Of a stretch of DNA of 39,156 nucleotides, positions 16,601 to 27,863 are shown piece by piece (positions within the stretch are counted from its first letter, which is position 1; each line of letters opens with the position of its first letter). Source of the stretch: Clostridia bacterium (GTDB lineage: Bacteria > Bacillota > Clostridia > Oscillospirales > CAG-272); contig JAFSSK010000075.1 in the NCBI GenBank assembly GCA_017451045.1, positions 1 to 39,156 on the forward strand, in the 5' to 3' direction. The notes under the pieces were generated by a model. It made no database searches. It worked only from the letters and a program-made list of their open reading frames with translations, and was not told the origin of the DNA. A program made the position numbers and the translations under genes.

Positions 16601-19453
16601 TTACTGTTTCAGACGGAGTCTGAAGCTTAAGATCTTGTGCGGCCCGAGTTCGAACGCGAACTTGCCGCCCTTGAGGGCAACCGGGCCGAGATCCGTTTCG
16701 TCCATCCGGACGGATTCGACGGAAGCGACGGGCAGGATGGTCTTGACGGACGCTTTCTGCGTTTCTTCCGACGCGTTCCAGATGCGGAGGATCAGGCCGT
16801 CTTTGTCTTCAGCCTGCTTGAAGGCGGAAACCATGATGCTTCCGTTCTGCGGTTCGAAGCTGAAGAAGGATGCTTCTGTCGGGAGAGCCGGCGCGTCCGG
16901 CGTGTCGTTGTATACGCCCTGGATCGCCTTTACGGGTACCTTGTTCGCGTATGCCGCCTGGAGCACGCCTGCCTGTTTCCAGTCGCCGGCATGCGGGTAG
17001 AGGGCATATTCGTATTCCATTTTGCAGATGCTGTGCTGCCCCGTGTATTTGTCCAGTTCCTCGTAGGTCATGTTGTTGTTGGCCGTCATGTACGCGCGCT
17101 GGGTGCGGATGAGCGTCAGCTTGATCGTGCGGTCCTTGTCGTCGTCCACCTCGTATTCGCGCAGACCTTTCGTCATCGCGGCGAAGCCGACTTTGCCGTC
17201 GGAGACGTCAACGAAGTTCTGCATGGGCTGGAAGGGAAGGTACTTTTCAAAGTTGTCCTTGACATCGCGCCAGCGGATGGTCCTTCTCGCGACATCCCAT
17301 GCCGATTCGACGTCCGCCCAGTCGGCGTTGGCAACGCCGGTCGGCAGATGGACGCACAACTTGTGGTCGCGGCTGCTGTTGACGAGCACCGTGTGGACCT
17401 TGAGATAGCGGCATCCCTTTTCCAGGGTGATGACCGTGCTGATCGGCAGATCCTTGAATTCGCGGCTGCGGTTTTCGCCGGAAAGATCGGCAGCGGCCGG
17501 GATGGACATGTTGAGATCGATCTTGAACGCGCCGCGGAGCTCGTTGGACTCCAGCATGGTGATGACGGCATTGGATCCAAGGCTGGTGTAAACAGCGTTG
17601 CGCTTGGGAACGACGCTGATGTGGGCGGAACCGGTCTCTCCGGTGTCCGTGTAGTAGATCAGGTTCTTGCTCTCAAGCCCTGTTTCCTTGTTCAGCATAT
17701 CGATCGTACCGTTCTGGTTGATGGTAACCTTCAGGTATTCGTTCTCGAGGTAGCCTCCGTCGCGGGCGACAAGCTGGCGGTTTTCGCCGATCTCGGGCCA
17801 GAATGCGAATTTCGGTTCGCGCATGCGCAGCGCCAGCGTCCTGTAGCCGTACTGCGGCACTTTGACCTTGACCAGCATGACGCGGCGGCGCGCTTTGAAT
17901 TTGATGGACTTGGTGTCGACCTGACGCTCGACGCCGATGTTGATATCGTCCTGGGACAGTTCCACCGCTTCCACGATGTTTCCGTTCTCGTCCACGATAT
18001 CGTAGAATTCGTCACCCGCGGCGGCTCCGGCCACGCCGATGTCAACGGCCGTGAACGCCTTTTTGGGCGTGTCGACGCGGAGCTCCACGACTTCTTCGCG
18101 CTCATAGGGAAGTGTGTTGTACAGCGTGAGGATATGGTCGCCCGGTTTGAATTTCTTGGATGTGTCGATATGGGAGAACAGGGAGATGACGGATCTGTTG
18201 GTCACTTCCTCCGCCACGGTCTTCGCCAGCGAGAAGTTGAGCATCATGTCCTCGTGGGCACGGTCGACAGCCGCGCCGCAGATGGAGTCGTGCGCGTGGT
18301 TCTGCAGCAGGTGATGCCATGCGCGCTCTAAGTTGGTCGTGGGATATTCCTTGCCGAACGCGTTGGCCAGGGAGGCGAGCGGCTCGCCCAGGTTGATCAG
18401 ATTGTTCTCCGTGTCGTCGTTGCGGATCTTGATGATGATCCTGGAGGAGTACATGGCGCCCAGGATGGAGTTGAAGCTGCCGTATTCGGCGGTGGTGAGG
18501 CGGAGTTCGCCGTTCCACTCTCCCTTGCCCTTGAAATCCTTCCGGATGGCGTCCATGTAGCTGTCCATCGTATCCTGTACGATCTCCACGTCCGGATAGA
18601 TCTTGTTCAGGTCGTCCGTCAGTTCGGGCAGATAGCGGTAGGGCTCGTCGTTGTCCTCCATGTTCATGGCCAGCACGTGATCGCCGAGCTGGTAGGGGAC
18701 CGCCTGGGTCAGCAGGCTGTCGAGCGCCTTCTTGAGGACGGCCGGGTCATGGATGTAGTCGAAATTCTCCGTCAGCACCGTGAAGGCTTTCTCGTAGGAG
18801 TATTTGTCCGCCATGTGGACGGGCTTCTGGGTGATGTCGTAGGTATAGGTCAGGTCGCGCAGGCCCTTTCCGAGCACGGCGGGTCCGTGCACGTAGAAGA
18901 ACCAGTTGGTACGCGTTACTTCGTCGAACGTGCGCAGCGTGTCCAGCTCGGACCCGTCGGCGCCCTTACATGCGAACAGCGGCGTCGCCAGGTACTTGTT
19001 GGTCCCTCTGTAGAAGATGGCCGTGTCGATGCCGAAGTTCCTGTACAACTGGGGCAGCTGGGACGGCTGACCGTAGCTAGTCGCGGTATAGCCGGACTTG
19101 ATGGTCCCGCCGTATTCCTGGCCCATGCGCCGGCCGAGCATCAGATTGCGGACCATTGCCTCCGGCGCCACCGTGTTGGTCTCCGGCAGGGTATACCAGT
19201 TCACGATTTGCATGCGGCCCGATTCGATCAGTTTGCGGATGCGCTCCTTGTTCTCGGGACGGATGGTCAGATAGTCCTCGATGACGATCGCACCGCCGTC
19301 GACAAGGAAATAACGGTAGCTTTCCTTGGTCTCAAGGATGTTAATGATATTGTCCATCAGGTCTTCCAGGCGCAGCTTGGACTGCTCGGCAGTATGACGC
19401 CATTCTCTGTCCCAATGGGTACCGTTGATCAGGTGGACGATTTTTTTGGACAT
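16601..19453 (-). CDS. GH38-family alpha-mannosidase-like protein, nucleophile position altered
   Basis: A 950-residue cytoplasmic protein of glycoside hydrolase family 38 (no signal peptide). The N-terminal catalytic domain begins VHLINGTHWDREW, supplying zinc ligands His13 and Asp15. NHAHDSICG supplies the distal zinc His. A helical middle domain and long beta-sandwich C-terminal domains follow, as in E. coli MngB. The segment that normally reads GYLPDSFGQ, with the Asp as nucleophile and zinc ligand, reads GYTATSYGQ here, placing Thr125 at the Asp position. Activity or substrate may therefore differ. ATG 19453 is chosen because GGAGGA lies about seven bases upstream; the frame extending to 19471 starts before that site. 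The MATE gene ends 27 bases upstream. Confidence 0.87.
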   Translation of the reverse strand: MSKKIVHLINGTHWDREWRHTAEQSKLRLEDLMDNIINILETKESYRYFLVDGGAIVIEDYLTIRPENKERIRKLIESGRMQIVNWYTLPETNTVAPEAMVRNLMLGRRMGQEYGGTIKSGYTATSYGQPSQLPQLYRNFGIDTAIFYRGTNKYLATPLFACKGADGSELDTLRTFDEVTRTNWFFYVHGPAVLGKGLRDLTYTYDITQKPVHMADKYSYEKAFTVLTENFDYIHDPAVLKKALDSLLTQAVPYQLGDHVLAMNMEDNDEPYRYLPELTDDLNKIYPDVEIVQDTMDSYMDAIRKDFKGKGEWNGELRLTTAEYGSFNSILGAMYSSRIIIKIRNDDTENNLINLGEPLASLANAFGKEYPTTNLERAWHHLLQNHAHDSICGAAVDRAHEDMMLNFSLAKTVAEEVTNRSVISLFSHIDTSKKFKPGDHILTLYNTLPYEREEVVELRVDTPKKAFTAVDIGVAGAAAGDEFYDIVDENGNIVEAVELSQDDINIGVERQVDTKSIKFKARRRVMLVKVKVPQYGYRTLALRMREPKFAFWPEIGENRQLVARDGGYLENEYLKVTINQNGTIDMLNKETGLESKNLIYYTDTGETGSAHISVVPKRNAVYTSLGSNAVITMLESNELRGAFKIDLNMSIPAAADLSGENRSREFKDLPISTVITLEKGCRYLKVHTVLVNSSRDHKLCVHLPTGVANADWADVESAWDVARRTIRWRDVKDNFEKYLPFQPMQNFVDVSDGKVGFAAMTKGLREYEVDDDKDRTIKLTLIRTQRAYMTANNNMTYEELDKYTGQHSICKMEYEYALYPHAGDWKQAGVLQAAYANKVPVKAIQGVYNDTPDAPALPTEASFFSFEPQNGSIMVSAFKQAEDKDGLILRIWNASEETQKASVKTILPVASVESVRMDETDLGPVALKGGKFAFELGPHKILSFRLRLKQ

Positions 19454-19480
19454 TGTTTGATCCTCCAGCATATAATAGAT

Positions 19481-20911
19481 TCAATTATTATCAGTATCTT
19501 CAGCCGACGGGCCGTCGGACGGCCCCCGGACGGATTCTTTTCCCGGGATCCGGTCGAAACCGTGCACCCAGTCCGAAAACAGGTAGTAGCAGGCGAAAAT
19601 GACGGAGCTGATCGTCCACGTGATGGGGTACGCCCAGTAGATCAGACCGATATCGCCGATATAGAACATAACCAGTTCGATATAGATGATCCGGAACACG
19701 CACCAGACGGACAGCATGACGAGCATGGGCACGAACGCCTTGCCGGCGCCGCGGCATACGGCCGCGATGCAGTGGGAGAAAGCGAGAAGGAAATAGAACA
19801 GGGCTACGGTCCGCGCCTGCTTCGTCCCGAAGGAAAGGACCTCCGGCGTGCTGTCGAAGAGCGAGATCAGCTGGGGGGCGAATCGCCAGATGAGAAGCCC
19901 GAACGTCTCTGCGGACAGAACGCCGCAGATGATCCCGAACCGGGCGCCCGTCCTGGCTCTCTTGTGCTCTCCGGCTCCCAGGTTCTGGCTGATGAATGTC
20001 GTGATGGCCAGCGTGAAGCTGTTGATGGGCAGGAAGGCGAATCCTTCGATCTTGACGTAGGAGCCGTAGGCGGCCATGGCGAATTTGCCGAACGTGTTGA
20101 TGGACGACTGTACCAGGACGTTCGCAAATCCGATGACGGAATTCTGGATCCCCGAAGGAACGCCGTTTTTCATGATCTCACGGAACATGTCCCGGTGGAT
20201 CCGGATCTTTTTTACAGATAGAGTGTAGACGTGTCCCTTCCGGCAAAGATGGAAAAGGCAGAGCAAAACGCTCAGGGACTGCGACAGGACCGTCGCAAAT
20301 GCTGCGGACCAGACGCCCCAGCGGAAAACGGCAACGAACAGAAGGTCGAGCAGCACGTTCAGCACCGACGACACGACGAGGTAGTAGAACGGTCTGCGGC
20401 TGTCGCCTAGGGCGTTCAGCGTCCCGCGAAGGACGTTGTACATCACAAGGAATATGCCGCCCGCGAAATAGCACCTGAAATAGGAGACGGCCAGCGGGAG
20501 CACTTCCGGGTCTGTCCGCATCCAGACGAGGAAAGTCGGCACGAACAGCACGCCCGTTAGGGAAAGGACCAGACCGAAGATGAGGTTGATGGCAACGTTT
20601 GTATGGATGGCGTCGGACGTCTTCTGGCCGTCCCCCGCGCCGAAATACCGGGCGATGACGACGCCGGCGCCCGTGGACGTTCCCATGAAGAAACTGACCA
20701 TCAGAAAGATCAGCGTGCCCGAGGAGGAGACCGCGGCAAGCGCCTCCGTTCCGAGGAAGCGGCCGACGATCAGAGAGTCTATCGTATTGTACAGCTGCTG
20801 GAACACCTGGCTCAGAAGGACCGGCACGGTGAACAGCAGGATCTGGCGGAAGGGATTGCCGACCGTCATGTTGCGGGTCGTCCCTCCGCGGTTCGGTAGT
20901 GAATCAGCCAT
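19481..20911 (-). CDS. MATE-family efflux transporter
   Basis: A 476-residue, 12-helix exporter of the multidrug and toxin extrusion family. Family features include the N-terminal PVLLSQVFQQLYNTIDSLIVGRFLG, the AGVVIARYFGAGD loop, GTLNALGDSRRPFYY before helix 5, and the second-half FVSQ-like segment FISQNLGAGEHKRAR. It is of the DinF/MepA-like branch common in Clostridia, which uses Na+ or H+ gradients. ATG 20911 overlaps the end of the msrC gene by eight bases and has only a poor ribosome binding site of its own, so translation is probably coupled. The divergent TetR regulator upstream may control it. The natural substrate is unknown. Confidence 0.93.
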   Translation of the reverse strand: MADSLPNRGGTTRNMTVGNPFRQILLFTVPVLLSQVFQQLYNTIDSLIVGRFLGTEALAAVSSSGTLIFLMVSFFMGTSTGAGVVIARYFGAGDGQKTSDAIHTNVAINLIFGLVLSLTGVLFVPTFLVWMRTDPEVLPLAVSYFRCYFAGGIFLVMYNVLRGTLNALGDSRRPFYYLVVSSVLNVLLDLLFVAVFRWGVWSAAFATVLSQSLSVLLCLFHLCRKGHVYTLSVKKIRIHRDMFREIMKNGVPSGIQNSVIGFANVLVQSSINTFGKFAMAAYGSYVKIEGFAFLPINSFTLAITTFISQNLGAGEHKRARTGARFGIICGVLSAETFGLLIWRFAPQLISLFDSTPEVLSFGTKQARTVALFYFLLAFSHCIAAVCRGAGKAFVPMLVMLSVWCVFRIIYIELVMFYIGDIGLIYWAYPITWTISSVIFACYYLFSDWVHGFDRIPGKESVRGPSDGPSAEDTDNN

Positions 20912-21395
20912 TATCTGCTGTCTGGCATTTCTTGGTTTGCCACAGGCCTGTCAGCTCCCGTTCCATCAGGGAAGCGACGGCTTCAAGCCCCGCTCGGTCT
21001 TCTTCTGTGAACCGGGCCGGGATTACGCTGTCGATGTCCAGCACGGCAACGATCCTTTCCCCGTCGCGGATCGGGACCACGATCTCGGAATTCGTGCTTT
21101 CGTCACACGCGATGTGACCCGGGAAGCGGTGGACGTCCGGAACCAGCTGTGTCGATCCTGTCTGCGCCGCCTTTCCGCATACGCCTTTCCCGAACGGGAT
21201 CTCGATGCAGGCGGGTTTCCCCTGGAACGGCCCCAGGATCAGGGTCTCTCCGTCGCAAATGTAGAATCCCACCCAGTTGATACGGTCGAGCGCCCGCCAA
21301 AGAAGTGCGGACGCGTTCGCCAGATCCGCTATCAGATGCGGTACGCCGCGGATGAGAGATTGCAATTCTTTTTCGAGTTCAGCATAATCTGTCAT
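20904..21395 (-). CDS. msrC: GAF-domain free methionine-(R)-sulfoxide reductase
   Basis: A 163-residue GAF-fold enzyme that reduces free methionine-(R)-sulfoxide using thioredoxin. The three redox cysteines are C63 (GKPACIEIPFG), C73 (GKGVCGKAA) and C97 (FPGHIACDEST). Their spacings of 10 and 24 residues match Cys84, Cys94 and Cys118 of E. coli MsrC. NWVGFYICDGETLILGPFQG and NSEIVVPI are other family marks. ATG 21395 is chosen because GGAGA lies six bases upstream; the frame extending to 21422 has no such site. It is first in the - strand run and overlaps the MATE start, which suggests that the operon answers oxidative or electrophile stress. Confidence 0.93.
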   Translation of the reverse strand: MTDYAELEKELQSLIRGVPHLIADLANASALLWRALDRINWVGFYICDGETLILGPFQGKPACIEIPFGKGVCGKAAQTGSTQLVPDVHRFPGHIACDESTNSEIVVPIRDGERIVAVLDIDSVIPARFTEEDRAGLEAVASLMERELTGLWQTKKCQTADNG

Positions 21396-21426
21396 AGCAG
21401 TCTCCAAAACACATAATAACAAGATA

Positions 21427-21493: not shown

Positions 21494-21522
21494 GTGACAA
21501 ACGTCCGAAGAAATGATATAAT
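21494..21522 (+). promoter_or_regulatory. Promoter of the TetR-family regulator gene
   Basis: GTGACA (21494-21499) and TATAAT (21517-21522) are 17 bases apart, upstream of the regulator start at 21566. The -10 region is within AAATGATATAAT (21511-21522), an exact inverted copy of 21427-21438 in the divergent promoter. The shared 12-mers are candidate regulator contacts. Confidence 0.65.
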
Positions 21523-21565
21523 AGAAGAAGCAAAAATCTTTCAGGCAATTGCTACGGAGACAAAA

Positions 21566-22105
21566 ATGGGAGTCTACAGAAAATCAAGTTTGTTTTTGAG
21601 AGAGTGTATAGAGGAGTTGCTTTTCGAACTGCTGAAAACGCACAATTACGAATCGATCGACATCAAGGAGCTGTGCGAGAAGGCCGGAGTCGGCAGGACC
21701 AGCTTCTATCGGTATTTCAGGGACAAGGAGACCGTCGTCCGCGCATACCTTACAAGGCTGTGGAGGAACTGGTGCGCAAGACGCGGCATCGACAGCGAAC
21801 TGAAAATGGACAGAGATACCGTCAGGAACATTCTGAGTTTTTCCAGAGAAAACGGCGAGGTGCTCACGCTGCTGTACCGGAACGACATGGACTGGGTCAT
21901 CCTGAAGGCGTTCCGCCAGGGACGCCAGGAGACCGGCCCTACCATGTATATCAACTATTTCATGACCAGCGGCCTTCTGGCCGTGCTGAAGGAATGGGTG
22001 GCGAAGGGGTTCAAGGAGTCTCCGGAGTACATTATCGGGAATCTGCTGAACAGCGCGAAAAGTTTTCTTCAGTCCGCGGAAAGCCGGGGTCAGTTTTCGC
22101 AGTGA
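21566..22105 (+). CDS. TetR/AcrR-family transcriptional regulator
   Basis: A 179-residue DNA-binding regulator. The N-terminal helix-turn-helix is clear: IDIKELCEKAGVGRTSFYRYFRDKETVV, with the YRYF segment typical of TetR proteins. The C-terminal ligand and dimerisation region (about 70-179) is helical and resembles the small-family TetR_C type that ends with a YINYFMTSGLLAVLKEWV helix. ATG 21566 is chosen because CGGAGA is five bases upstream; a GTG at 21494 in frame coincides with the -35 box. It is divergent from the msrC-MATE run, so control of that run and of itself is the simplest inference. The ligand is unknown. Confidence 0.9.
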   Translation: MGVYRKSSLFLRECIEELLFELLKTHNYESIDIKELCEKAGVGRTSFYRYFRDKETVVRAYLTRLWRNWCARRGIDSELKMDRDTVRNILSFSRENGEVLTLLYRNDMDWVILKAFRQGRQETGPTMYINYFMTSGLLAVLKEWVAKGFKESPEYIIGNLLNSAKSFLQSAESRGQFSQ

Positions 22106-22138: not shown

Positions 22139-22180
22139 TTCGGCGCCTGTTCCGTTCGAAACAGGCGCCGAAAGTGTTTT
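22139..22180. terminator. Intrinsic terminator between convergent genes
   Basis: TTCGGCGCCTGTT (22139-22151) pairs perfectly with AACAGGCGCCGAA (22160-22172), a 13-bp stem around an eight-base loop, followed on the + strand by GTGTTTT. It lies between the + strand regulator (ends 22105) and the - strand phosphoesterase (ends 22180) and probably serves both; the - strand T-run is more distant. Confidence 0.85.
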
Positions 22181-23214
22181 CAGTCGAACTTACGTATGAA
22201 GTATTTGCAGCCGCCTTCGAAATAGTCCGGGTCGCGCATGGCGTCCTTCCCGAGCAGGTCGATCAGGTGGATCATACGGGTGAACATTTCGCCGTTTTCA
22301 TAGATGTCGATGATGCGGCCGCCGCGCATGTCGTCGTGCGCCGACATATCGTATCCGATGGCTCCGTCGTAGGCCAGCGTGATGCCCAGATACTCGGCCT
22401 GGAAATCGTTGAGATGGTCGTGCCCGCAGAAAATGCCGCGGACGTCTCCGCGCTCAAGACAGGCCAGGAAGATGCCCGAATTCAGTTCGGACGTGGCGGG
22501 AGATTCGCGCTTGTTGCCTACCATGTTCATCTGCTCGGGATTTTCCCCGACCAGCATGAACTCGACCGGAGGCACATGCATGAACATAAGCCCCGGGATC
22601 TTGTGGCCGGCTTTCTTTTCCCGGCGCAAAGACTCCTGGTAGTACCAGATGTTCTGATTGAACATGGTAGAGCAGTTCGGATGTCCGGAGCCGAACCCGT
22701 GCCGGAGATAGTAATTCTGAAAAGGTTCCTTTCTGCCCCACTGGGCAAGGTAGTCCGCAGGGGAGGAGAAGGAGTCCATGCCCCAGATGTGGTAGCGAGG
22801 GTCGTCCGATCCGTGCGCAAGGACCGGGATGCAGTAGTTGGGGATGCCGCTGATGCTTTTCGGCCCGCGGCTGGAAAGACACAGCGGGAACCGTTCGTAA
22901 ACGCGCTCGCTCTCCTCTTTCGTCATGACTTCTTCCGGGTCGTGGTTGCCGAACACATGCGCCCACGGAATATTCCTGTCGTGCGCCGGCTTCATGACCG
23001 TCTCAAGGAAAGTCTTCAGCAGCCTCGGCGTGATGTTGCACAGCTGATCCCCGCCCAGCATGATGAAATCGGGCCGGGTTTTTTCGATCAGCGCTTCGAA
23101 CCCCTTCTGCATCTTGGGGTTGAAGTCGGGTTTCCCGTGCATGTCCGAGACCATGAGGATCCTGAAGTGCCCGTCTTCGTGAAACCGGAGAACGGGTTTC
23201 TGAGATTTTTTCAA
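22180..23214 (-). CDS. Calcineurin-like metallophosphoesterase, second paralogue
   Basis: A 344-residue metal-dependent phosphoesterase. The metal-site motifs are all present: ILMVSDMHG, LGGDQ, VFGNHDPEE, FMHVPPVEF and IFCGHDHLND. No signal peptide or membrane segment is seen, so it should be cytoplasmic. The start is a UUG at 23214, seven bases after AGGAGG; the in-frame extension to 23238 overlaps that site. It is closely related to the other phosphoesterase two genes upstream: the start (KPVLRFHEDGHFRIL) and end (MRDPDYFEGGCKYFIRKFD) align directly. It follows the 85-residue gene by about 20 bases and is last in the operon, ending at a strong terminator. Substrate unknown. Confidence 0.9.
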   Translation of the reverse strand: MKKSQKPVLRFHEDGHFRILMVSDMHGKPDFNPKMQKGFEALIEKTRPDFIMLGGDQLCNITPRLLKTFLETVMKPAHDRNIPWAHVFGNHDPEEVMTKEESERVYERFPLCLSSRGPKSISGIPNYCIPVLAHGSDDPRYHIWGMDSFSSPADYLAQWGRKEPFQNYYLRHGFGSGHPNCSTMFNQNIWYYQESLRREKKAGHKIPGLMFMHVPPVEFMLVGENPEQMNMVGNKRESPATSELNSGIFLACLERGDVRGIFCGHDHLNDFQAEYLGITLAYDGAIGYDMSAHDDMRGGRIIDIYENGEMFTRMIHLIDLLGKDAMRDPDYFEGGCKYFIRKFD

Positions 23215-23234
23215 AGCAGAGCCTCCTTTTTGAT

Positions 23235-23492
23235 TCAAGCAGGCCAGACCTGCTTGAGCAGGATGGTGCGGATGCCTACCAGATACCGGACGAGTTCTTC
23301 TGCCGGCAGGCCGGAGATGTCTTTGAAGATGGGATCGATGCCTTTAGTCAGCTCGGCCACTTCCGGGCAGGCGGAGGTGTACTGTTTGATGAGCCTGACG
23401 GAATGAGGGACGTCAAGGCCTTTTCCCTTGCGGTACGCGTATGTGACGTGGTCGATCTCGTCGACCATCAGGTATATTTCAGAAACGTTCAT
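23235..23492 (-). CDS. Small protein between two phosphoesterases, unknown function
   Basis: An 85-residue protein I do not recognise. It begins MNVSEIYLMVDEIDHVTYAY, has a basic middle (YRKGKGLDVPHSVRLIKQY), a Cys at about residue 42, and an amphipathic C-terminal helix (LPAEELVRYLVGIRTILL). It looks soluble. ATG 23492 follows AAGGAGG at an eight-base spacing, a strong signal that supports a real gene. It lies 14 bases after the first phosphoesterase and about 20 before the second, so it is the middle gene of a three-gene operon and may be a partner or regulator of one or both. That function is inferred only from position. Confidence 0.78.
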   Translation of the reverse strand: MNVSEIYLMVDEIDHVTYAYRKGKGLDVPHSVRLIKQYTSACPEVAELTKGIDPIFKDISGLPAEELVRYLVGIRTILLKQVWPA

Positions 23493-23506
23493 ACAAACAA
23501 TCCTCC

Positions 23507-24544
23507 TTAAGGCAGGTAGCGGATGAAGTACTTGCTGCCGCCCTCGAAATAAGTCTCGTCCCTCATGGCCTCTTTGCCGATGAGATCCATCAGCCGTACC
23601 ATACGGGTCTGCATCTCGCCGTTCTCGTAAAGGTCGATGATCCTTCCGCCCCGCATGTCGTCGTGCGCGGACATGTTGTAGCCCAGCGCACCGTCGCAGG
23701 CCATCGTGATGCCGCAGTATTCTCCCTGCAGATCGATCAGGTGCTCGTGCCCGAAGAAATATCCCCGGATGTCCCTGCGCTCGAGAGAGGCCAGGAACAT
23801 GCCCGAGCTGATTTCCGACACGCCGAGCGTCGTCCGCTTGATGCCGACGGCGTTGCATTCCTCCGGATTCTGGCAGATATGGACGAACTCGGGAAGCGGG
23901 ATGTGCATGAAGACGACGCCCGGGACGACGTGGCCCTCTTGTTTCTCATATTTCTCGGACAGTTCGTAATACCACCGGACCTGGTCGAACAGGACCGTCG
24001 CGCCGTTCTCGCCCTCGTTGAAGTGACGGGGCAGCACGAAATCATCCATTTTCAGATCCTTTTCAAGCCCGAACATTTCCGGATAGTCCGTGATGTACCG
24101 GTTGGAGTCCATGGCCCATATCAGGTAGGCCGGCCTGTCCTCCTTCGAAGCCAGCACAGGGATCGCGTAATTCCCGTATCCGTGGATCTCGGCGGGACCG
24201 GACTGGTACAGGCAGCCGGGGATGCCCTCATATATTTTTTCCTGCTCTTCGAGCGGCATGGCTGTTTCACGGTCGTGATTCCCGAAGATGATTCCGAACG
24301 GCAGCGAGCGTGAAAGGATCGGCTCGATGATGTCGCTGAAGAACGCGCGCGTCTCTTCAATTGAAAAAACCGGCAGGCACTGGTCCCCTCCGATCATCAC
24401 GAAGTCCGGAGCGGTCTCGCGGACCAGAACCTCAAGGCCTTTCTTGAGTTTCGGGTTGACGGAAAGACCTCCGATATGGAAATCCGATACCTCAAGGATC
24501 CTGAAATGGCCGTCCTTGTGGAACCGCAGAACATGCTGATTCAA
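23507..24544 (-). CDS. Calcineurin-like metallophosphoesterase, first paralogue
   Basis: A 345-residue metal-dependent phosphoesterase with ILEVSDFHIGG, MIGGDQ, IFGNHDRET, VFMHIPLPEF and YFFGHEHLID motifs. It is first in a three-gene operon. UUG 24544 is preferred as start: GAAGGTGATC just upstream is a good match to the anti-Shine-Dalgarno, and the protein then begins like its paralogue (HVLRFHKDGHFRIL). The in-frame ATGs at 24568 and 24565 fall in or just beside the promoter -10 box and cannot be on the expected transcript. Compared with the second paralogue the last metal motif is GHEH instead of GHDH. Substrate unknown; nucleotide or phospholipid-type phosphodiesters are possible. Confidence 0.9.
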   Translation of the reverse strand: MNQHVLRFHKDGHFRILEVSDFHIGGLSVNPKLKKGLEVLVRETAPDFVMIGGDQCLPVFSIEETRAFFSDIIEPILSRSLPFGIIFGNHDRETAMPLEEQEKIYEGIPGCLYQSGPAEIHGYGNYAIPVLASKEDRPAYLIWAMDSNRYITDYPEMFGLEKDLKMDDFVLPRHFNEGENGATVLFDQVRWYYELSEKYEKQEGHVVPGVVFMHIPLPEFVHICQNPEECNAVGIKRTTLGVSEISSGMFLASLERRDIRGYFFGHEHLIDLQGEYCGITMACDGALGYNMSAHDDMRGGRIIDLYENGEMQTRMVRLMDLIGKEAMRDETYFEGGSKYFIRYLP

Positions 24545-24566
24545 AAGATCACCTTCTTTCCCCATC

Positions 24567-24596
24567 ATTATAGCATCCGAGACGATCGGCAGTCAA
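24567..24596 (-). promoter_or_regulatory. Promoter of the twin-phosphoesterase operon
   Basis: On the - strand TTGACT (24596-24591) and TATAAT (24572-24567) are 18 bases apart. Transcription should begin near 24560, giving a very short leader of about 15 bases before the UUG start at 24544. The -35 boxes of this and the divergent dapA promoter are about 30 bases apart. Confidence 0.75.
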
Positions 24597-24914: not shown

Positions 24915-25808
24915 ATGGAAACTGTTTTCAAAGGAGTGGGAACGGCGATCGTAACGCCGATGGATGCGCAGGGGAATGTCGATTACGAGGCGTTCGCCCG
25001 GCTGATCGACTGGCAGGTGGCCAGCGGCGTCAACGCGATCATCGTGGCCGGAACGACAGGCGAGGGGTCGACCCTGTCTGACGAGGAGCACTGTCAGCTC
25101 ATCAAATACTGCGTGGACAAGGTCGGCGGAAGGATCCCCGTCGTAGCGGGGACCGGATCCAACGATACCGATTACGCGATCCACCTGACAAAATTCGCAT
25201 GCGAGGCGGGGGCCGACGCCATGCTGCTGGTCACCCCCTATTACAACAAGGCGACGCAGCGGGGTCTCATCGAGTCCTTCACGGCGATCGCGGACGCCAG
25301 CACGAAGCCATGCATCCTGTACAACGTCCCGTCAAGGACGGGCTGCAACCTGTTGCCAAAGACCGCGCTGGCTCTGAGCGAGCATCCGATGATCACGGGC
25401 ATCAAGGAAGCCAGCGGGAACATTTCCCAGATCGCCGAGCTGATGTCGCTCGTGCAAGGGAAGATGGACGTCTATTCGGGGAACGACGATCAGATCGTGC
25501 CGATCCTGGCGCTTGGCGGCGCCGGCGTGATCTCGGTCCTTTCGAACGTTGTGCCGAAACAGACGGTTGCCATATGCGACAGCTTCTTCGCGGGAGATAT
25601 CGCGAAAAGCCGCAAACTGCAGCTGAGTCTTTTGCCGCTGATAAACGCTCTGTTCTGCGAAGTGAACCCGATCCCCGTGAAAGCCGCCACGGCAGCCATG
25701 GGATACGGGCAGAACAAACTGCGTCTGCCGCTGACGTCGATGGAAAAGGCCAACGAGGAGCATCTGTTGGCGCTGATGCGCGAAGCGGGCGTCGCGTTCG
25801 GAGGATAA
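24915..25808 (+). CDS. dapA: 4-hydroxy-tetrahydrodipicolinate synthase
   Basis: Condenses pyruvate and aspartate semialdehyde, the first committed step of lysine and diaminopimelate synthesis. The 297-residue product has normal length for this cytoplasmic tetrameric barrel. Motifs include VAGTTGEGSTLSDEE near residue 45, YNVPSRTGCNL with the catalytic Tyr and the Arg that binds the carboxylate, and GIKEASGN carrying the Schiff-base Lys. The ATG lies five bases after GGAGGG at the end of the leader terminator. It is the first gene of the riboswitch-controlled operon; the dapB start follows the stop by one base. A longer frame from 24627 runs through the promoter and riboswitch and is not the start. 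Confidence 0.97.
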   Translation: METVFKGVGTAIVTPMDAQGNVDYEAFARLIDWQVASGVNAIIVAGTTGEGSTLSDEEHCQLIKYCVDKVGGRIPVVAGTGSNDTDYAIHLTKFACEAGADAMLLVTPYYNKATQRGLIESFTAIADASTKPCILYNVPSRTGCNLLPKTALALSEHPMITGIKEASGNISQIAELMSLVQGKMDVYSGNDDQIVPILALGGAGVISVLSNVVPKQTVAICDSFFAGDIAKSRKLQLSLLPLINALFCEVNPIPVKAATAAMGYGQNKLRLPLTSMEKANEEHLLALMREAGVAFGG

Positions 25809-25809
25809 A

Positions 25810-26562
25810 ATGAACATTCTTGTTTTTGGAGCCGCAGGGCACATGGGCCGGGAGGTCGCTGCAAAATGCGAAGAGCACTATGCCGGAGCCGTCTTGAGCG
25901 CCGGCGTCGATCTTATGCTGCCGGCGTCCGACAAGGCTGCACATCTATATAAAAGCCCCTTTGAGGTGACGGAGCCCGTCGACTGCATCGTCGATTTTTC
26001 CCACCACAGCGCGACGGCAGTCCTGCTGGATTACGCAGTAAAGAAAACTCTCCCCGTCGTTCTGTGCACGACCGGGCAGACGGAAGAGGAGAACGGGCTG
26101 ATCGAAAAAGCCTGTGCGAAGATCCCGGTGTTCCGTTCTGCTAACATGTCGTTGGGGATCGCCCTTTTGGTAAAGACCGCGAAACAGGTCGCCGCGGCCA
26201 TGCCGGACGCGGATATTGAGATCGTCGAGACCCACCACAACAGGAAACTGGACGCGCCGTCAGGAACGGCGCTGATGCTGGCAAGATCTCTGCAGGAAGT
26301 CCGCGAAGGCTCAACGCTCGTATGCGGAAGGAACGGCATGGCGAAAAGGGAGAAGAACGATATCGGCATCTCCTCCGTCCGCGTCGGCAACGTGGTGGGG
26401 ATCCACGAGGTGATCATCGGGACCGCTTCCCAGACCATCACGCTGAAGCACGAGGCGCACAGCCGGGCGCTGTTTGCCGAAGGCGCGCTTTGCGCGGCGG
26501 AATTCCTTTGCGGGAAGAAGCCGGGCCTTTACAACATGAATTCAATGATAGAAAAGATGTGA
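25810..26562 (+). CDS. dapB: 4-hydroxy-tetrahydrodipicolinate reductase
   Basis: Reduces hydroxy-tetrahydrodipicolinate to tetrahydrodipicolinate with NAD(P)H, the second step of the pathway. The 250-residue protein starts with a Rossmann motif (ILVFGAAGHMGREV). It carries the catalytic ETHHNRKLDAPSGTA segment with the His pair and Lys, and the SVRVGNVVGIHEV segment. The CTTGQTEEE loop is also typical. It begins one base after dapA and has no independent promoter, so it depends on read-through of the riboswitch. The length is at the short end of the family, as in other Clostridia. Confidence 0.96.
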   Translation: MNILVFGAAGHMGREVAAKCEEHYAGAVLSAGVDLMLPASDKAAHLYKSPFEVTEPVDCIVDFSHHSATAVLLDYAVKKTLPVVLCTTGQTEEENGLIEKACAKIPVFRSANMSLGIALLVKTAKQVAAAMPDADIEIVETHHNRKLDAPSGTALMLARSLQEVREGSTLVCGRNGMAKREKNDIGISSVRVGNVVGIHEVIIGTASQTITLKHEAHSRALFAEGALCAAEFLCGKKPGLYNMNSMIEKM

Positions 26563-26567
26563 CATAT

Positions 26568-27863
26568 ATGATTGCGACCAATCTGGAGAACAGGAACGGA
26601 AAACTGTTTTTCGCGAGAACCGATACGGCAGAGCTGATCCGCGCATTCGGATCCCCGCTTTACGTGATGGACGAGGGCAGGATCCGCGCCAACATGCGGA
26701 TATACCGCGATTCGATGGCGGCCGGGTTCGGTGGCGGCGCTATGCCGCTTTACGCCAGCAAAGCCCTTTCCTTTAAGCGGATCTACGAGATCGCCCGTGA
26801 AGAGGGCATCGGTATCGACGTGGTCTCGCAGGGCGAGATCCATACGGCCGAGCGGGCAGGATTCCCGATGGAAAAAGCTTATTTCCACAGCAACAACAAA
26901 ACGGATGAGGACATCGCGTACGCCATGGACAAAGGCGTAGGCTATTTCGTGGCCGACTGCGGGGAAGAGGTGGACGCCGTTGAAAAAGAGGCGGCCAGGC
27001 GAGGCATGAGGCAGAAGATCCTTCTGCGGCTGACGCCCGGGATAGACCCGCACACCTATGAAGCGGTATCGACCGGGAAGGTCGACTCGAAATTCGGCTC
27101 CGCCATCGAAACGGGCCAGGCGGAGGCTATCACCGAAAAGGCGCTCGGCTGTCCACACATCGAGCTGGCCGGGTTCCACTGCCACGTGGGCTCCCAGGTG
27201 TTCGTTTCAGACGTATATATGCGGGCTGCCCGCGTGATGCTGACATTCATCAAAAACATGAAGGACAGGCACGGGTATGCCGCGTCCGAACTGGATCTGG
27301 GCGGCGGATACGGCGTCCGCTACACGGAAGCCGATCCCGTCATCGACATCGCAAAGCAGATAGGATCGCTTTCCGCTTTCATGAAAGAACTGTGCGGTGA
27401 ACTCGGCATCGCTCTGCCGTCCGTGCGGCTCGAGCCCGGCAGGAGCATCGTCGCTGACGCGGGGCTTACCTTGTACCGCGTCGGATCCGTCAAAAGGATC
27501 CCCGGATACAAGAACTACGTGTCGGTCGACGGCGGCATGACGGACAACCCGCGCTACGCCCTTTACCGGTCGCGCTACACCGTGCTGGCTGCCGAGAAGC
27601 TTGACGAGAAGGAGACTTTCGTCTGCTCTGTCGTCGGCAGGTGCTGCGAGAGCGGGGACATCATCCAGGAGAACGTGAGCCTCCCGGCATCCATTGCAAG
27701 GAACGACATACTGGCCGTCCTGACGACGGGCGCATACAACTATGCCATGGCGTCCAACTACAACCGGATCTGCAGACTGCCCGTCGTCATGATCAAAGAC
27801 GGCAGCCCCTACGTCGCCGTCAGGCGCGAAACGCCGGACGATCTGATCCGGAACGATCTGTGA
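26568..27863 (+). CDS. lysA: Diaminopimelate decarboxylase
   Basis: Last enzyme of the lysine pathway, decarboxylating meso-diaminopimelate to lysine with pyridoxal phosphate. The 431-residue fold-III decarboxylase shows the PLP Lys in LYASKALS, IGIDVVSQGEIHTAERAG, FHCHVGSQ, ELDLGGGYGVRY, LEPGRSIVADAG and the intersubunit CESGDI loop. ATG 26568 starts five bases after the dapB stop; the ribosome binding site is weak, so translation is probably coupled. A long upstream extension of the frame overlaps dapB and is not used. Its place inside the operon, between dapB and dapF, fits control by lysine. Confidence 0.96.
   Translation: MIATNLENRNGKLFFARTDTAELIRAFGSPLYVMDEGRIRANMRIYRDSMAAGFGGGAMPLYASKALSFKRIYEIAREEGIGIDVVSQGEIHTAERAGFPMEKAYFHSNNKTDEDIAYAMDKGVGYFVADCGEEVDAVEKEAARRGMRQKILLRLTPGIDPHTYEAVSTGKVDSKFGSAIETGQAEAITEKALGCPHIELAGFHCHVGSQVFVSDVYMRAARVMLTFIKNMKDRHGYAASELDLGGGYGVRYTEADPVIDIAKQIGSLSAFMKELCGELGIALPSVRLEPGRSIVADAGLTLYRVGSVKRIPGYKNYVSVDGGMTDNPRYALYRSRYTVLAAEKLDEKETFVCSVVGRCCESGDIIQENVSLPASIARNDILAVLTTGAYNYAMASNYNRICRLPVVMIKDGSPYVAVRRETPDDLIRNDL

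Follow-up and report, generated by a model that had tools for sequence, protein, structure and literature searches.

The closest described relatives of the enzymes considered here belong to Pfam family PF00149: purple acid phosphatase, GpdQ, Rv0805, Lmo2642, and the dimetal phosphatase of a fish (structure 2nxf). The metal motifs of this superfamily are DxH, GDxx, GNH(D/E), xH, and GHxH. The metallophosphoesterase MPE1 is encoded on a contig of a gut-type Clostridia bacterium (JAFSSK010000075.1), of which the whole analysed stretch of 39,156 nucleotides is referred to as the window. MPE1 resembles these enzymes in its fold (Z 20–22) and has all metal motifs in common with them, but is only 11–17% identical to them. 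A further difference from the solved PF00149 relatives is a probably dedicated small partner gene. A literature search on metallophosphoesterase operons, tandems, and pseudoenzymes, confined to titles and the openings of abstracts, returned no description of such a layout.

The locus occupies positions 22180–24544 on the minus strand and features MPE1, the gene of a small protein of 85 residues, and MPE2, in this order (Table 1). The initial annotation had described two paralogous calcineurin-like enzymes flanking an 85-residue protein, and this is borne out: MPE1 and MPE2 share 52% identity across 338 residues (E 2e-126), both pass the PF00149 cut-off of 21.5 bits (36.2 and 45.8 bits, respectively), and both keep all of the superfamily motifs as SDxH, GGDQ, GNHD, MHxP, and GHxH. 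The longest frame of MPE1 spans 23507–24568 and that of MPE2 22180–23238; the likely starts are TTG codons at 24544 and 23214, preceded by AAGAAGGTGATC and AAAAAGGAGG, and each has a good ribosome-binding site ahead of it. A start of MPE1 at 24568 would fall where the −10 box ends. The strong ribosome-binding site ascribed to the small gene is present as well, with AAGGAGG nine bases ahead of the ATG. The intergenic gaps measure 14 nt between MPE1 and the small gene and 20 nt between the small gene and MPE2. Of the operon's own promoter and terminator, the former has its counterpart in a promoter-like site matching 11 of 12 consensus positions—a type found three times in the region against 1.5 expected from shuffles—which stands back to back with a 12/12 site facing a dapA-type gene (PF00701). 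The terminator stands in part only: the hairpin is there, but the scan reports it for the plus strand alone, and the tail on the operon strand, TTCCTGTATT, is a poor T tract. Convergent with MPE2 lies a TetR-type regulator gene (21494–22105), and a TetR-like gene, named by eye, is found upstream of a related enzyme at L036:4167–4772. Further genes in the window are a GAF-domain gene (20904–21422) and, downstream of the operon on the minus strand (16601–20911), genes of a GH38-type alpha-mannosidase and a MATE transporter.

Table 1. Positions of the operon features in the window and of the c/d enzyme pairs (intact copy followed by degenerate copy)
Feature	Position	Strand	Remarks
MPE1, calcineurin-like metallophosphoesterase	24544..23507	minus	345 aa, probable TTG start; PF00149, intact motifs, model, tree
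Small protein, predicted helical bundle, no known family	23492..23235	minus	85 aa, ATG start
MPE2, paralogous metallophosphoesterase, branch 'b'	22180..23214	minus	344 aa, probable TTG start
Promoter-like site TTGACT-18-TATAAT, TG before −10	24596..24567	minus	consensus scan, 11/12, predicted
13-pair hairpin between MPE2 and convergent TetR-type gene	22139-22172		terminator-like for plus strand
c/d pair, window genome C64	L037:5155-7073		motif inspection
c/d pair	L033:93-2007		motif inspection
c/d pair	L035:4612-6533		motif inspection

The AF2 model of MPE1 (pLDDT 87.9, pTM 0.90, 24 alignment rows) features a calcineurin-like fold, as judged by its superposition on 2nxf (Z 21.9, rmsd 3.7, 264 aligned); the top matches—2nxf, purple acid phosphatases (2bq8), and GpdQ—are tied near Z 21.8. 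In NCBIfam, no equivalog approaches its cut-off: YaeI (25.3 bits against 188), LpxG (24.9 against 350), SbcD (15.8 against 77.65), and YfcE (17.4 against 56.25) match weakly across the metal motifs of the N-terminal part (bits 13–25, cut-offs 56–350). These matches do not single out a substrate class for MPE1. MPE1 is probably a two-metal phosphoesterase, presumably cytosolic, to which no family-specific name fits, and its predicted activity would be the metal-dependent hydrolysis of a phosphodiester or phosphomonoester. The N-terminal LRF..DG.F.IL..SD.H pattern of these enzymes may resemble that of the Dcr2/PAP28-type branch. The last 20 residues (YFEGG.KY.IR; MPE1 residues 335–353, window 23507–23566) are conserved in MPE1, MPE2, and the sister branches, yet this tail is modeled with low confidence, a combination that may hint at a contact formed only in an assembly. 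The contrast of GHDH and GHEH in the last motif, taken earlier as a hint at divided substrates, does not follow lineage. Within the MPE1 branch, GHEH occurs in the window and in genomes G920 and G1224, and GHDH in G851 and G860. Across the enzymes inspected, the position between the two histidines is highly variable (D, E, S, L, T, M, N, C). The GHDH/GHEH contrast is no hint at substrates and was rejected as a substrate code.

The small protein has four further members, 27–38% identical, in four other genomes (G851, G860, G920, and G1224). The first of these relatives to be found, in a goat-rumen Clostridia MAG (L032), comprises 87 residues, is 33% identical over 78, and is encoded 10 nt behind an MPE1 relative. 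Besides Met1, the five members have D11, I13, D14, H15, T17, R21, G23, D27, V45, L71, and R75 in common, which gives the motif D-x-I-D-H-x-T-x3-R-x-G-x3-D. Between G851 and G860, the one pair compared, dN is 0.152 and dS 0.728 (dN/dS about 0.21), with 17, 9, and 29 differences at the three codon positions; the adjacent enzyme genes give a dN of 0.081 and a dS of 0.724. The small gene is under purifying selection, and this ratio, together with the relatives in four other genomes, identifies the frame as a real gene. The model, built from two alignment rows only (pLDDT 86.1, pTM 0.78), is compact and consists of helices at residues 3–21, 28–41, 43–50, and 64–82. No known family accounts for it: the window protein has no significant match in Pfam, NCBIfam, PHROGs, or PADLOC, and over all five members the best E values are 0.011 (Pfam) and 0.033 (NCBIfam), each in one member only. 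PDB sequences yielded nothing convincing (best E 0.39 and 0.56), and the fold search gave no Foldseek E under 0.001 and a best VIA Z of 6.7. The CheA phosphotransfer domain 1tqg aligns with a Z of 6.2 (rmsd 3.0, 77 aligned), under the noise level of helical bundles.

The occurrence of the small gene is narrow. An initial search found it in one of 59 genomes, as the window copy only, and a scan of genome contigs for short peptide patterns did not find it. With a two-row profile, the window genome is the single positive among 395 genomes of its own family; among 295 genomes, the window genome and G1224, which belongs to the same order and a different family, are matched; among 197 genomes, the four matches are G851, G860, G920, and G862, the last of which was rejected; and among 247 genomes of relatives of G920, G920 alone is positive. 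These sets overlap, and their counts are not additive. The match in G862 (E 0.0074, 31 residues) disappeared with a four-row profile, reached an E of 0.079 with five rows, and lies in a genome without an MPE match. A final scan of 114 sequences (605,395 bases) with the five-row profile returned the small gene in the five genomes only and in the flank of no further MPE gene, the next best match having an E of 0.079. The small protein was found neither in plasmids or phages by tblastn nor in viral contigs; MPE relatives in viral contigs (two loci, 29% identity), phages (three records), and plasmids (nine records) are too distant to be counted with the pair.

In every confident locus, five of five, the small gene directly follows an MPE gene, at distances of 14, 10, 12, 10, and 11 nt (window, G851, G860, G920, and G1224), and none was found alone. 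The expected co-occurrence with an enzyme thus holds, but the conserved three-gene set proposed alongside it does not: only the window has MPE2 next to the small gene, and behind the other four pairs no MPE2-type gene was seen. In G851, G920, and G1224, the pair is followed by genes other than MPE2-type ones. The G860 contig stops 72 nt past the small gene, so that the absence of MPE2 is hardly tested there, and the G920 contig starts with the enzyme, which makes this a test of part of the locus. The conserved unit is MPE1 plus the small protein. The MPE1-type enzymes are 49–59% identical between lineages, and the neighbors vary—lysine biosynthesis genes in the window; a ligase, a distant MPE, and a His-phosphatase in G851/G860; a methyltransferase-like gene, named by eye, in G1224—which indicates that the pair was kept while its surroundings changed. 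Five-gene clusters at L032:545–4857 and L073:109–4600 comprise an AMP-binding ligase (PF00501/PF14535), a distant MPE, a histidine phosphatase (PF00300), an MPE1-type enzyme, and the small protein; Pfam was run on two of the L032 genes only.

In a tree of 38 enzymes, the five linked to a small gene, MPE1 among them, form one branch (support 99/98). Its sister consists of the enzymes of G855 and G859 (99/97 together), which are followed by another gene and have no small frame in their flanks. MPE2 groups with G063_b and G024_b (99/96) in a branch that sits in a four-enzyme array in two relatives and whose genes occur without the small gene. MPE1 and MPE2 are, hence, not recent twins: they fall into separate, well-supported branches, and a recent tandem duplication yielding both is ruled out by the trees. 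The sharp boundary between enzymes with and without the small gene allows the effect of gaining a partner to be tested on the sister enzymes. The gene after the sister enzymes in L093 and L094 resembles, by eye, diaminopimelate dehydrogenase; in the window (24915–27863), a dapA-type gene diverges from the operon, and the link between the two is possibly chance.

Four linked enzymes were compared with eight unlinked close ones, and 13 sites separate the two groups. The fifth linked enzyme, G1224, found later, deviates from the consensus of the unlinked enzymes at 11 of these (77, 93, 112, 215, 217, 223, 230, 240, 248, 280, and 291) and fails at two (191 and 233). The clearest case is residue 93, in WAHVFGNHD, which is His in all eight unlinked close relatives and Ala or Ile in all five linked enzymes. 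Seven of the 13 sites fall within the 34 residues 215–248, around the metal-motif residue His222 (p 0.0034, post hoc, with the width chosen afterwards). The control clade G851/G860 clusters more strongly (p 0.00015), and the clustering was discarded as proof of an interface; shared descent alone could produce the sites of the linked branch.

The favored reading, with about an even chance, makes the small helical protein an accessory subunit or regulator dedicated to the MPE1 lineage, which binds MPE1 and tunes access to, or the specificity of, its two-metal site. The MPE1 lineage would have gained the helical-bundle gene once, directly behind the enzyme gene; the two proteins would be made together, and the small protein would dock on MPE1, stabilizing the enzyme or shaping access to its active site and thereby affecting activity. 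The enzyme may then have been altered near its metal motifs, e.g. at the His shortly ahead of GNHD, which the unlinked relatives conserve, and in the window genome, MPE2, from the other branch and with its own ribosome-binding site, would have joined the pair to form one operon. This reading draws on five loci, and since the five enzymes form one clade, conserved adjacency and common sites may partly reflect plain inheritance. A possible if less favored account gives the small protein a role of its own in the pathway, for instance as a binder of the product or of some regulatory ligand, with co-expression as its only tie to MPE1. Adjacency and co-expression suffice to explain all data, and the conserved polar residues D11, D14, H15, R21, D27, and R75 could make a ligand or metal site; the confinement of the family to a single branch of enzymes argues against this account, as do the overlapping sets of 395, 295, 197, and 247 genomes, whose search gave no free-standing member. 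Equally tentative is the broader idea of a two-component metallophosphoesterase, in which an undescribed helical subunit, gained once by a single branch of enzymes from gut and rumen Clostridia, would have taken over some of the surroundings of the active site, replacing the His conserved ahead of GNHD, and produced a regulated or re-targeted phosphoesterase, within a family that habitually works in tandem arrays, conserved dead copies included.

The earlier reading, a three-part complex in which the small protein bridges two enzymes with divided substrates, draws on the single operon of the window with its short gaps and has become unlikely, given that no MPE2-type gene was seen behind the other four pairs, that such genes exist without the small gene, and that GHDH/GHEH fails to separate the branches. 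Still more doubtful is a phosphorylated, histidine-phosphotransfer-like carrier with His15 on helix 1, acted on by the MPE or by the His-phosphatase of G851/G860: an invariant His in a helical bundle, the CheA domain among the structural matches, and the PF00300 gene in the same cluster would suit it, but the Z of that match is within the range for unrelated helical bundles, and no profile matches. A toxin–antitoxin or defense module is highly improbable; a small uncharacterized protein adjoining a phosphoesterase in an operon invites the thought, but PADLOC gave no match for the four proteins scanned, and searches of plasmids, phages, and viral contigs returned no match to the small protein.

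MPE1 belongs to an uncharacterized group of metallophosphoesterases greatly expanded in these Clostridia, one genome alone giving 12 matches to it; intact and degenerate copies lie side by side, which poses a functional question. Small partner proteins of such enzymes are hard to spot because no profile exists for them. Ten tandem arrays were examined (G000 C15 and C64, G024, G063, G127, G033, G117, G154, and two in G768), six of which hold a copy that has lost catalytic residues or residues we take to be metal ligands. The same order, an intact copy c followed by a degenerate copy d, holds in window genome C64, G024, and G063, which represent three genera. The d copies lack the first motif (DxH), GNHD, and the last His, and form one branch (support 100/99), which suggests that a copy of dead appearance has persisted from their common ancestor onward. 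It is possibly a pseudoenzyme partner of c, and such conserved degenerate copies beside intact ones may be of equal interest. Catalytic residues are also lost (GDSD; SDLR/GTED/FQVP/GYNA) in further tandem copies at L034:5098–6078, L051:1975–3102, and L052:354–1484; the losses in G127 (GDSD) and G768 look independent. The L052 copy, from G768, is broken into two frames, which may be a sign of decay. Another close MPE paralogue (47% over 119 residues) is cut near a contig end of the window genome (C18, L038:6131–6616).
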